From Anaerolineae bacterium (GTDB lineage: Bacteria > Chloroflexota > Anaerolineae > DRVO01), in contig JABLXR010000008.1 in assembly GCA_013178015.1 (NCBI GenBank), forward strand, positions 62,001 through 126,000: DNA of 64,000 bases, written 5' to 3'. Shown here piece after piece: positions 15,301-44,970 of the stretch. A program made the position numbers and the translations under genes. Each line of letters begins with the position of its first letter. Within the stretch, counting starts at the first letter, position 1. The notes beneath the pieces were generated by a model. The model did not search any database. It saw only the letters and a program-made list of their open reading frames with translations, and was not told the origin of the DNA.

Positions 15301-16155
15301 TCACTCCTGGTGGAACGTGTCTGCTATCACTTGTTTGATGAAGGCCAGGTCCTCCTTCGTCTGGGCCAGTAGCTCTTCCAGCGAAAGGTCGCGCCAGGAA
15401 TGGGGGCCCTGGTACTCGCTGTGGAGGGAAATGGTCCCGTCGTAGCCGATGTCGTGCAGGTAGCCGAAGAACTCGCGCCAGGGGACGAGGCCCTCAGGAA
15501 GCGGCACCAGCTTGGTTTGCCACTTCTCTTGTCCCATCTCCTCGTCATACTGGTGCACCCAGGCCATGCTCTTGATGGCCACGAGGTTGATCCAGGGAGT
15601 GAGCAGGTCCATCCCCATCTTCCAGCCGGCTACTCCGCCCTCCACGGTCATGTGTCCGGGGTCTATGTACGCACCCACTACGTCGGGGTCGCGCCCGAGG
15701 AGGAGCTGCCAGACCACGGCGGCATCGGCCGTAAGGAAGTTGCCAGAGTGCGAGTGCAGGTTGGCCCGCACTCCGTGCTTCTCAGCCAGAGGGGCGATGC
15801 CGTCGAGCAACTCGCGGGCCTCCTCGATCTGGCGGCGCATGTTGCCGAAGCCCCGGTAGGGCCAGTACCCCAGCTTCAGGTCTCGTATCCCCGACTCCCC
15901 GGCGGCCTGGAAGATGTCGTCGGCATGGGGATCGTCGGCGCTAGTGATGCCGGTGGTGATCATGGGTATGTCGTAGCCCATTCCCCGGACTAGGTCCACT
16001 GCCCGGGGCAGGGCCTCCAGGGCGTCGGGAGGCTCGATGTGGCCGCCGGGACGCACGGTCAGATCCAGGCCGTCGAACCCCAGCTCGCCCGCCCGTCTGG
16101 CCGCTTCCTCGATGGAGAGAGGCGCGAGGTGCTTCGAGAACATCACTAGTTTCAT
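15301..16155 (-). CDS. Sugar phosphate isomerase/epimerase (xylose isomerase-like TIM barrel)
   Basis: 284 residues. AP-endonuclease-2/xylose-isomerase-like barrel with the first-strand LGFDGLDLTVRPGGH segment, metal-ligand-type positions in HSHSGNF, YIDPGHM, and SLHSEYQGP near the end. The start was placed at MKLVMFSKHL, preceded by GGAGGG eight bases upstream, rather than eight residues earlier. It follows the kdgK-eda-selenoprotein group on the same strand after 151 bases, which suggests a related carbohydrate role. Substrate is unknown. Confidence 0.85.
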   Translation of the reverse strand: MKLVMFSKHLAPLSIEEAARRAGELGFDGLDLTVRPGGHIEPPDALEALPRAVDLVRGMGYDIPMITTGITSADDPHADDIFQAAGESGIRDLKLGYWPYRGFGNMRRQIEEARELLDGIAPLAEKHGVRANLHSHSGNFLTADAAVVWQLLLGRDPDVVGAYIDPGHMTVEGGVAGWKMGMDLLTPWINLVAIKSMAWVHQYDEEMGQEKWQTKLVPLPEGLVPWREFFGYLHDIGYDGTISLHSEYQGPHSWRDLSLEELLAQTKEDLAFIKQVIADTFHQE

Positions 16156-16306
16156 ATCTGATTCCCTCCAGGCTTCCAAGGCTGGAGCCCGACCGTGGTG
16201 CCGATGGATAACGGCACCCCCGGCCGACGCTCCGCCGATTGTAGATCCCCTTCCGGCGTTGCCGCGCCCGACGTCAGGCCCGCGGCCTAAGGGCAGGGGC
16301 GCTGCG

Positions 16307-16774
16307 TCATATCATGCTGGCAGACTCGCCCTCGATCAGCCGGACCAGGAGCCCGGCAGCCTCGCCCGCGACGACGGCGCAGGTTCCCGGACCCGCCGGT
16401 TCACGCACCAGACGGTAGATGGGCTCGCACTGGGTGTAGCGGAAGTGGGCTAGGAACGTCTCCCGCCACCGCCGAACTACCTCGGCCGCGGCTTGATCGT
16501 CCTGGGCGGCACTCTCCCGACCGTGCATCAGGCCCAGTACCATCACCCCGCCGGAGAGCGCGCCGCACATCTCCTGGCGAGAGGACCCCACGCCGCCGCG
16601 GAAGCCGTTGGCCGCCCGGAGTACCGCCCCGGGGACCTCGCCGAAGACGTGCTCGCCGACCGCGAGCAGAACCGCCTCCGATCAGTGGAGCCCGCTGCGC
16701 ATCAAAGCTTCGGCCCGGCGCGAGACGCGCTCGGCGTCTGACTCGGTGTCGCTACGGCCCCTTTCGCGTGTCAC
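16307..16774 (-). CDS. C_GCAxxG_C_C family redox protein, probable selenoprotein (in-frame UGA at 16682-16684)
   Basis: Reading through one UGA gives a 155-residue protein matching the C_GCAxxG_C_C family of putative redox proteins with four invariant Cys. The UGA codes position 31 in SGLH-U-SEAVLLAVGEH, exactly where the first family Cys lies. The others are present: C70 in EMCGALSGG (CGAxxG motif), C116 and C132. Upstream of the UGA the frame is open and reads as a helix (AERVSRRAEALMR). A SECIS-like hairpin follows the UGA. The GTG start at 16774 lies 5 bases after the eda stop; its Shine-Dalgarno is weak. Without recoding, only 94 residues from a GTG at 16591 would be called, losing the first redox site. 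A true nonsense mutation is the alternative. Confidence 0.82.
16643..16679 (-). promoter_or_regulatory. Bacterial SECIS-like hairpin for selenocysteine insertion
   Basis: On the minus strand, two bases after the UGA, GGAGGCG (16679-16673) pairs with CGTCTTC (16649-16643), counting two G-U pairs. A four-base bulge, GTTC, sits on the 5' side. Above it is a perfect 7-bp stem TGCTCGC/GCGAGCA closed by the loop GGTCG. The loop starts 20 bases after the UGA. The GGUC apical loop and U-bearing bulge parallel the E. coli fdhF SECIS recognised by SelB. Confidence 0.78.
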
Positions 16775-16779
16775 AGGGC

Positions 16780-17427
16780 TCAACCGGACCGTGCCGCTCG
16801 GACCGCCTCGGTCAGGGCGCGAGCGTTGGCAGTGAGCTGGGCGAAGTCGCCCGCGGCCACCAGTTTGTTGTTGACCAGATCGCTGCCGACGGCCAAAGCG
16901 GCCGCGCCGGCCCGGATGTAGTCGGCGGCGTTAGCCTTTCCCACTCCGCCGGTCGGCACCAGCCTCACCTGAGGCAGAGGCGCCAGCACGTCCCTCAGGT
17001 AACCGGGCCCCAAGACGCCGGCCGGGAAGACCTTGACGAAGTCGGCGCCGGCCTGCCAGGCGGCCAGTATCTCCGTGGGGCTGAACGCCCCTGGTATGAC
17101 CACCTTGCCGTACCGGTGGCAGAGCTCGATGGTGCGGAAATCAGTCGTGGGTGAGACCACGAACTGGGCCCCCGCCAGTATGGCTGATCTGGCCGTCTCT
17201 GGGTCCAGAACCGTTCCTGCGCCCAGCAGCACCTCATCGCCAAACCGTGAGGCGGACTGCTCGATGATCTGCAGGGCCCCGGGGGTGGTGAAGGTAAACT
17301 CGATGATGTCAACCCCGCCGGCGCGGATGGCATCGGCTACCTGGGCCAGTTCGCGGGCCTGAGATAGGCGCACCACGGCGACGACGCCGGCATCCTCGAT
17401 GCGCCGGGCAATGCTACGCTTGTCCAT
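16780..17427 (-). CDS. eda: 2-dehydro-3-deoxyphosphogluconate (KDPG) aldolase
   Basis: 215 residues; cleaves KDPG to pyruvate and glyceraldehyde 3-phosphate. The Schiff-base lysine is K132 in DFVKVFPAG, the catalytic Glu is E43 in IIEFTFTTPG, and GAGTVLD and PTGGVG are in place. The ATG at 17427 follows GAGGAGGT. It starts 10 bases after the kdgK stop, so the two form an operon converting 2-keto-3-deoxygluconate to central metabolites. The selenoprotein follows immediately. Confidence 0.94.
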   Translation of the reverse strand: MDKRSIARRIEDAGVVAVVRLSQARELAQVADAIRAGGVDIIEFTFTTPGALQIIEQSASRFGDEVLLGAGTVLDPETARSAILAGAQFVVSPTTDFRTIELCHRYGKVVIPGAFSPTEILAAWQAGADFVKVFPAGVLGPGYLRDVLAPLPQVRLVPTGGVGKANAADYIRAGAAALAVGSDLVNNKLVAAGDFAQLTANARALTEAVRAARSG

Positions 17428-17437
17428 TCGGACCTCC

Positions 17438-18424
17438 TCAGCGAGAGATGCGCAGGCCGCCGCCGGCGAGGAGGCGGTTGGCCTCTTCCTCGGAGGCGAG
17501 GTTGAAGTCGCCCGGGATGCTGTGCTTGAGGGCGGAGAAGGCGACGGCGAAGTTGATGGCTTCCTGAGGGCCGGCGCCCGAGAGAGACTTGTAGATGAAG
17601 CCGGCGCTGCACGAGTCGCCCCCGCCGACACGGTCCACGATTTCGAGTTCGTAGGTGGGGCCGAGGTAGTGCTGGCCTTCCTGGTAGACGAAGGCCGACC
17701 AGCGATTGCGCCAGACGGAGATGTCCTCGCGAAGGGTGATGACCACCGCCTGGAAGCCGAACTGCTCGGACAGAAGCTCAGCCACCTTCTGGTAGTTCTC
17801 CGCCTTGATGCCGAAGACGCGTTCGGTGTCTTCCTCCGTGGTGAACAGGACGTCCACATTCTGCATGAGGGGCGACTGCACCTGGCGCGCCTTCTCCTGC
17901 GACCAAAGGCGGGCCCTGTAGTTGAGGTCGTAGGACACGGTGCAGCTCGCCTGCTTGGCGGCCATGATGGCCTCCTGAGCGACCTGAGCAGCCCCGTCCG
18001 ACAGGGCAGGAGTGATGCCACTGGTATGGAACCAGCGGGCGCCGTCGAGCACGCTGGCCCAATCCACTTCGCTGGGCGAGATGCGGCTGATCGCCGACCC
18101 GGCCCGGTCGTAGAGCACGGAACTAGCGCGCGGAGCGGCACCGAACTCCACGAAATACAGCCCCATGCGGTCGTCCTTGGACCATAGGATGTGGGAGGTG
18201 TCGACTCCCAGTTCCCGAGCTCGGTTGCGACAGAGCCGCCCCAGGGCGTTGTCGGGCAGCCGGCTGACCCAAGCGGAATCTACGCCGAGCCGGGCCAGGC
18301 CCACGGCCACGTTGAGCTCAGCGCCTCCGGCGGTGAGGTCGAACGAGGTGGCCTGCTCGATGCGGCGAAAGTCGGGCGGGGAGAGACGGATCATCGCTTC
18401 ACCGAATGTAACGACCGTTGGCAT
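17438..18424 (-). CDS. kdgK: 2-dehydro-3-deoxygluconokinase (PfkB family sugar kinase)
   Basis: 328 residues, PfkB/ribokinase fold. Substrate-side motif GGAELNVAVGLARLG is near residue 33, SYDLNYRARLW near 164 is typical of KDG kinases, and the anion hole with catalytic base D270 lies in RVGGGDSCSAGF. Usual members read GAGDAFAAG here; the Cys after Ser is a mild variation. Phosphorylates 2-keto-3-deoxygluconate for the aldolase encoded next. ATG at 18424 with GAGGAG six bases upstream. Confidence 0.92.
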   Translation of the reverse strand: MPTVVTFGEAMIRLSPPDFRRIEQATSFDLTAGGAELNVAVGLARLGVDSAWVSRLPDNALGRLCRNRARELGVDTSHILWSKDDRMGLYFVEFGAAPRASSVLYDRAGSAISRISPSEVDWASVLDGARWFHTSGITPALSDGAAQVAQEAIMAAKQASCTVSYDLNYRARLWSQEKARQVQSPLMQNVDVLFTTEEDTERVFGIKAENYQKVAELLSEQFGFQAVVITLREDISVWRNRWSAFVYQEGQHYLGPTYELEIVDRVGGGDSCSAGFIYKSLSGAGPQEAINFAVAFSALKHSIPGDFNLASEEEANRLLAGGGLRISR

Positions 18425-43711: not shown

Positions 43712-43771
43712 AGTAGAGTTTGCCCCCAGTCCGTGGAGTGGTGGGCGGAGTGCCTCAGGAGGTACCGAGAG

Positions 43772-44970
43772 ATGGCGAGGGAGCGGTTTGTACGGACGAA
43801 GCCGCACGTAAACGTGGGGACGATAGGGCACATAGACCATGGCAAGACGACGCTGACGGCAGCGATCACGAAGGTACTAGCGTTGAAGGGGTTAGCGAGT
43901 TACCGGCCGTTTGAGTCGATAGACAATGCGCCGGAGGAGAAAGAGCGGGGCATCACGATAGCGATAGCGCATGTAGAGTATGAGACTGAGAAGCGGCACT
44001 ATGCGCACATAGACTGTCCTGGTCATGCTGACTACATCAAGAACATGATCACTGGTGCGGCGCAGATGGATGGGGCGATACTAGTAGTAGCGGCGCCGGA
44101 TGGTCCCATGCCGCAGACGCGGGAGCACGTACTATTAGCGCGGCAGGTTGAGGTACCGGCGATGGTAGTATTTTTGAACAAAGTCGACATGATGGAGGAC
44201 GAGGAGTTATTGGAGTTAGTAGAGTTAGAGTTACGGGAGTTATTGGATGGGCATGGTTTTCCTGGGGACGAGGTACCGGTAGTACGTGGGAGTGCGTTGA
44301 AGGTAATTGAGAGTGACAGTACGGACCCTGAGGCGCCGGAGTACAGGTGCATATGGGAGTTATTGCGGGCGATAGACGATTATGTACCCACGCCGCAGCG
44401 GGAGGTAGACCGGCCGTTTTTGATGGCGATAGAGGATGTATTTGGGATCAAGGGACGTGGGACGGTAGTGACGGGTCGGATAGAGCGTGGGCGGTGAAGG
44501 TAGGGGACGAGGTAGAGATAGTAGGGTTACGGGAGACGCGGCGGACGGTAGTGACTGGGGTAGAGATGTTTCGCAAGACTCTAGATGAGGGGATAGCGGG
44601 GGACAATGTAGGGTGTTTGTTGCGGGGGATAGAGCGGGATGAGGTAGAGCGGGGGCAGGTACTGGCGCAGCCTGGGAGCATACGGGCGCACGATCGTTTC
44701 CGGGCGCAGGTATATGTACTACGGGCGGAGGAAGGTGGGCGGCACACGCCGTTTTTGCCTGGGTATCGGCCGCAGTTTTACATGCGGACGTTGGACGTGA
44801 CGGGGACCATCTTGCTGCCTGAGGGGGTAGAGATGGTGATGCCTGGGGACAACATAGAGATGACGGTGGAGCTGATCACGCCGGTAGCGCTGGAGGCGGG
44901 GAGCCGGTTTGCCATCCGCGAGGGTGGACGCACCGTGGGTGCCGGCGCCATCACCGAAGTGCTCGATTAG
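43772..44970 (+). pseudogene. tuf: Elongation factor Tu, interrupted by a single-base frameshift
   Basis: The 5' frame (43772-44497) encodes domain 1 with [24 protein letters not shown] and NKVD, and runs into TGA directly after RIERG. The normal continuation, [12 protein letters not shown], is in the next frame from 44491 and continues to a proper C-terminus at 44970. Restoring one G in the GGG run at 44489-44491 would give a complete protein of 399 residues. AGGAGGT lies 8 bases before the ATG. This could be a sequencing or assembly error, a decayed copy or a recoding event. Codon use from the start to about 44800 is strikingly different from neighbours. Confidence 0.9.

Follow-up and report, generated by a model that had tools for sequence, protein, structure and literature searches.

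Analysis of the window, by which we mean the whole 64,000-nt stretch of DNA, revealed what is very probably an intact gene for a selenoprotein in the C_GCAxxG_C_C family (PF09719) at 16307-16774 on the minus strand, in which an in-frame UGA would be decoded as selenocysteine (Sec) at residue 31. In the mechanism that we propose, SelB carrying Sec-tRNA(UCA) would bind a hairpin starting 13 nt after the UGA (16684-16682), and insertion of Sec at residue 31 would yield an all-helical protein of 155 aa. Comparison of related sequences supports UGA-to-Sec decoding well, and the SelB-hairpin interaction is inferred.

The minus-strand frame running from 16774 to 16307 contains a single internal stop, the TGA at 16684-16682, and closes with a terminal TGA at 16309-16307. 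Gene calling with translation table 11 returned the 94-aa fragment at 16307-16591 alone. The read-through protein (VTRERG...LMRSGLH-U-SEAVLLAVGEHV...QEMCGALSGG...TQCEP...GTCAVV...), in which the peptide spanning Sec31 would be SGLH-U-SEAVLLAVGEHVFGEVPGAVLR, matched PF09719 over residues 30-144 (E 2.5e-19, 70 bits, cut-off 27) and TIGR01909 at 58.3 bits (cut-off 47.4). The 94-aa fragment by itself scored 45.6 bits, and this difference from the full read-through indicates that the stretch across the UGA contributes real signal. The four conserved Cys residues of the family, one of which may be replaced by Sec, correspond to U31, C70, C116, and C132, with the UGA occupying the column of the first invariant Cys; invariance was assessed in 52 members, counting U as C. 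These results bear out the initial annotation, which had placed the UGA at the family's first invariant Cys, described the other three Cys residues as intact and the reading on either side of the UGA as protein-like, and anticipated that standard gene finding would report only a 94-residue piece. Translation would begin at the GTG at 16774-16772, the only alternatives being the TTG and ATG at residues 24-25, and would continue through the UGA to the end of the gene at 16307. Coordinates are collected in Table 1.

Table 1. Features of the predicted selenoprotein locus, with positions counted from the first letter of the window.
Feature	Position	Strand	Basis
Predicted C_GCAxxG_C_C family selenoprotein gene, 155 codons plus stop	16307..16774	-	PF09719 70 bits; 52 class relatives aligning across the UGA; GTG start proposed
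In-frame UGA, predicted Sec codon, residue 31	16682..16684	-	Same column TGA in 42/52 and Cys in 10/52 relatives
Conserved Cys70 (CGA motif)	16565..16567	-	Invariant in 52 members
Conserved Cys116	16427..16429	-	Invariant in 52 members
Conserved Cys132	16379..16381	-	Invariant in 52 members
Upper SECIS hairpin (putative), 7 bp, loop GGUCG (16657-16661)	16650..16668	-	Six or more pairs in 40/42 Sec and 1/10 Cys genes
Longer predicted stem carrying a GUUC bulge, specific to this gene	16642..16680	-	Folds here; lower pairs not conserved
eda-like KDPG/KHG aldolase, directly upstream, start approximate	16780..17430	-	PF01081 148.5 bits; kept in same-genus genome G001
kdgK-like pfkB sugar kinase	17438..18424	-	PF00294 148.7 bits; kept in G001
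Xylose-isomerase-like TIM barrel protein, downstream	15301..16179	-	PF01261 66 bits; homologue downstream in G001

The source genome, an assembly of 97 contigs that is approximately 95% complete, was searched for the Sec machinery. A tRNA-Sec with a UCA anticodon was detected at 76.7 bits, above the gathering score and in agreement with ARAGORN, together with SelA (536 bits), SelB (336 bits), and SelD (342 bits). The SelD gene (L017, G000:C50:15894-16829) carries an in-frame UGA within MTRAAGUAAKRP, at the usual active-site position of SelD, and a GGCGCAG-GUU-CUGCGCC hairpin lies downstream of this codon. Judged by its sequence, SelD is a selenoprotein itself, and the cell must therefore decode UGA as Sec to make full-length selenophosphate synthetase.

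To place the codon among relatives, we drew on 396 genomes of the same class (presumably Chloroflexota), 89 of which gave family matches, and compared 52 of the best subfamily members; all 52 aligned with the read-through protein across the UGA. A scan of genome contigs queried with the single protein had yielded one relative. At the column of Sec31 the codon was TGA in 42 members and TGC or TGT in ten, with nothing else observed, so that the UGA is aligned with Cys in homologues, the Sec/Cys pairing by which bacterial selenoproteins are recognised. The ortholog from a genome of the same genus (G001) is 57% identical and has the same in-frame TGA with intact flanks. On the maximum-likelihood tree, supported branches forced at least three Sec/Cys exchanges, and groups of Cys members were nested in families f36, f42, and f50. 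Two findings named beforehand as fatal to a selenoprotein, namely the absence of selB and tRNA-Sec from the source genome and decay of the frame in close relatives, were thus sought and the opposite was seen in both cases. Standard gene calling would hide this Sec-dominated clade, reducing the gene to a 94-aa fragment here and probably likewise in many relatives. Repeated exchange of Sec and Cys at one site, accompanied by hairpin loss, makes the clade a clean natural experiment on the contribution of Sec in a family without an assigned function.

No selA match was found in four of the ten genomes with the Cys form (G173, G258, G204, and G291). G173 and G258 are the two Cys genomes of f50 and are 95-97% complete. 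Every Sec genome had a selA match except G224, which is 82% complete. As selA was also present in 21 of 23 control genomes lacking a subfamily member, its co-occurrence with the Sec form is supportive and not strong. Two distant members outside the clade, L037 and L039 (genomes G040 and G049), likewise have a UGA at the first Cys (GFA-U-SQAV and DYN-U-AESV), showing that Sec at this site would not be restricted to one clade.

The UGA is followed by an upper hairpin, UGCUCGC-GGUCG-GCGAGCA, whose 7 bp start 13 nt after the codon (13-31 nt) and whose loop lies 20 nt from it. The 39-nt element at 16642-16680 has a folding energy of -20 kcal/mol and a z-score of -3.0. In the window gene alone, all seven pairs form in 9% of synonymous recodings, making the hairpin weak evidence when taken from this gene by itself; it is the comparison across relatives that makes the hairpin evidence strong. 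Minimum-energy scoring of 45 nt gave mixed z-scores and is a blunt test, and pairs were instead counted in a fixed register (nt 17-23 with 29-35, the UGA being 1-3). Sec genes formed on average 6.6 of the 7 pairs, and synonymous recoding based on local codon usage predicts 5.0; the corresponding values for Cys genes were 3.6 and 3.7. Six or more pairs were kept in 40 of the 42 Sec genes and in one of the ten Cys genes. With one Sec gene taken per family, 114 of 119 pairs formed, whereas synonymous shuffling gave 86 ± 3.6 and never reached 114 in 20,000 recodings. Compensatory changes included those at pair 19-33 (C-G to A-U) and, in L096, at pair 20-32 (U-A to G-C), the latter with Leu replaced by Arg on one side of the stem and Glu by Ala on the other. 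At nt 19-21, 27 Sec genes use CTC or CTT, and a single one uses CTG. For a test of the link between Sec and the hairpin by independent pairs, only three such pairs were available on the tree, all in the same direction or tied, which is too few for significance.

This element had been likened in the initial annotation to the SECIS of fdhF. The 7-bp upper stem and GGUCG loop exist as described and the upper hairpin is conserved, but the likeness in the lower stem and U-bulge (GUUC) is confined to the window gene and unconserved in relatives, where, for example, pair 11-37 forms in only 10 of 42 Sec genes. The locus shares with fdhF, whose SECIS is a hairpin directly 3' of the UGA with a small apical loop, and with the general bacterial model a hairpin right after the UGA, a small G-bearing loop, and a spacing within 16-37 nt. 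Unlike fdhF, this clade conserves the upper hairpin only, so that a conserved lower stem with a bulged U, the mark of an fdhF-type SECIS, was not found. Most members have C(GUN)G as their apical loop; the genus of the window has GGUCG and has lost the closing C-G pair. Both loop types agree with the published bacterial SECIS model, which describes an upper stem of 4-16 bp, a loop of 3-9 nt with G in its first two positions, and a spacing of 16-37 nt (PMC13188914); the window hairpin, with its 7 bp, GGUCG loop, and 20-nt spacing, falls within these limits. An Rfam search returned no SECIS at the hairpin, and the weak plus-strand match to SECIS_2 that it gave (16734-16820; 19.8 bits, gathering score 70) was set aside as a chance hit. 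Two long-branch Sec members of family f44, L133 and L134 (genomes G119 and G138), have the UGA in the same column and a UCUCG loop but form no hairpin in the register shared by the others; any SECIS that they possess must be differently built.

We favour decoding as Sec because the machinery is complete, the UGA stands at an invariant Cys column, and Sec and Cys have been exchanged at least three times; because the hairpin that follows the UGA is missing in Cys members and has changed in a compensatory manner; and because Cys members occur in four genomes without detectable selA. The agreement of loop and spacing with the published model and a confident helical model, with the four key residues at helix starts, point in the same direction. 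Counted against this reading were the share of recodings that reproduce the hairpin, the closing pair lost in the window genus, the Sec genome lacking a selA match, and the two distant Sec members without a hairpin in register.

The AlphaFold model is all-helical (pLDDT 94, pTM 0.88), with helices starting at residues 31, 71, 116, and 133, which would place Sec31, C70, C116, and C132 at or beside helix N-termini. Thiolates and selenolates are typically stabilised at such positions. By analogy with what is known of the family and with the general use of Sec, Sec31 may serve as a redox selenol acting with the conserved Cys residues. General Sec usage likewise makes thiol/selenol redox catalysis or relay more likely than a set of iron-centre ligands.

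That second role, in which the same selenoprotein would use its Sec/Cys set to ligate or neighbour an iron or iron-sulphur centre and not for thiol/selenol catalysis, is possible but unlikely. It arises from a profile of 26 divergent members, which picked split-Soret cytochrome c (1h21) from the PDB at E 2.8e-4, with the next match at 0.57. A 65-aa stretch of 1h21 in turn passes the PF09719 cut-off (28.4 vs 27 bits), and the CGAL, GR, and later Cys residues correspond in order, suggesting remote homology to the N-terminal domain of the cytochrome over CGAxxG...GR and the later Cys. Split-Soret cytochrome c is credited with 'a novel iron centre' in the title of Abreu et al. 2003, as cited in PMC5701242. 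The cytochrome differs, however, in being larger and haem-bearing, and the Sec31 column aligns to Ala in 1h21, where a Cys occurs four residues earlier. Moreover, a Foldseek search with the model gave no significant match in the PDB, and most prokaryotic selenoproteins are thought to be redox-acting (PMC9312934). With the protein sequence alone as query, phmmer returned nothing meaningful from the PDB. It is quite improbable that Sec31 itself is a selenolate ligand of, or directly beside, an Fe or Fe-S centre held by the conserved Cys residues; if true, this would make the protein a Sec version of the split-Soret domain and imply an unusual Sec-ligated metal centre across the Chloroflexota class. 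The occurrence of a PF09719 domain in an iron-centre protein is a new lead on mechanism, and the link to the cytochrome is a testable biochemical entry point.

Two further explanations would deny Sec31 its place in the product. UGA is generally a competing stop in selenoprotein genes, and the downstream frame does have a GTG start, so the codon could be a true stop at low selenium, followed by a restart at 16591 that makes the 94-aa fragment a product of its own; this is very improbable, as the fragment would be without Sec31 and the helices at the start of the protein, and conservation in the family covers the full length across the UGA. That a nonsense mutation or a sequencing error turned a Cys codon (TGC/TGT) into TGA is scarcely credible: the TGA is indeed one base away from either codon, and the assembly is fragmentary and shows one or more apparent frameshifts in the window, tuf being one such case, but the same TGA recurs in the same-genus ortholog and in 40 other members from many families with frames intact, and the hairpin is kept beside TGA and lost beside Cys.

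The apparent frameshift in tuf (EF-Tu), a gene which lies at 43733-44970 on the plus strand between fusA and rpsJ, was located near 44490. Coding sequence for the GTPase domain stops at 44497; that for domains 2-3 lies in a different frame and extends to 44970. As EF-Tu is essential, this is probably an assembly error.

The gene encoding the predicted selenoprotein is an additional member of an already known selenoprotein family; the Sec-dominated clade is new. That Sec-containing members might exist elsewhere in the family, as had been supposed, is established in reviews, which list them (PMC9312934, PMC13188914) and distinguish a Sec 'form 1' and 'form 2' (PMC13188914). The NCBI title for TIGR01909 is 'C-GCAxxG-C-C family (seleno)protein', and the window protein exceeds the curated cut-offs of both this model and PF09719. 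Our literature search found no earlier report of the Chloroflexota Sec clade or of its operon context. The HUGP/GUXX-star fusion selenoprotein (NF045501) resembles the window protein in its N-terminal part, which matches residues 18-108, and its name, HUGP, suggests that Sec occupies the equivalent position. Its second domain is absent from the window protein, and membership was rejected (41.3 vs 325 bits), as was membership of the DVU_1555 family (NF045669; 49.7 vs 103 bits).

The proposed GTG start sits 5 nt past the stop codon of eda, and the selenoprotein gene is probably translationally coupled to it. In G001 the kdgK-eda pair is also upstream, and the TIM-barrel homologue follows downstream after one inserted ADP-ribosylglycohydrolase-like gene (read by eye). 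The initial annotation had pointed to this sugar-acid operon as an unexpected partner for a redox selenoprotein. The arrangement was confined to the window's genus: galK was found in 10 loci, all of family f36, where it stood directly upstream in most loci, and elsewhere the neighbours were MobB-like, NAD(P)-disulphide-oxidoreductase-like, or unrelated genes, names outside the window having been assigned by eye from sequence. As partners differ in this way across families, kdgK-eda is a local arrangement that reveals little about function, and we rejected it as functional evidence. In nine f36 loci (L116, L118, L119, L122, L124, L125, L126, L129, and L130), the Sec/Cys gene lies approximately 65-116 nt downstream of the galactokinase-like gene and, in f36 loci, is often followed by a Xaa-Pro-aminopeptidase-like gene. 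The galactokinase-like neighbour ties the gene to a sugar kinase for a second time, separately from kdgK.
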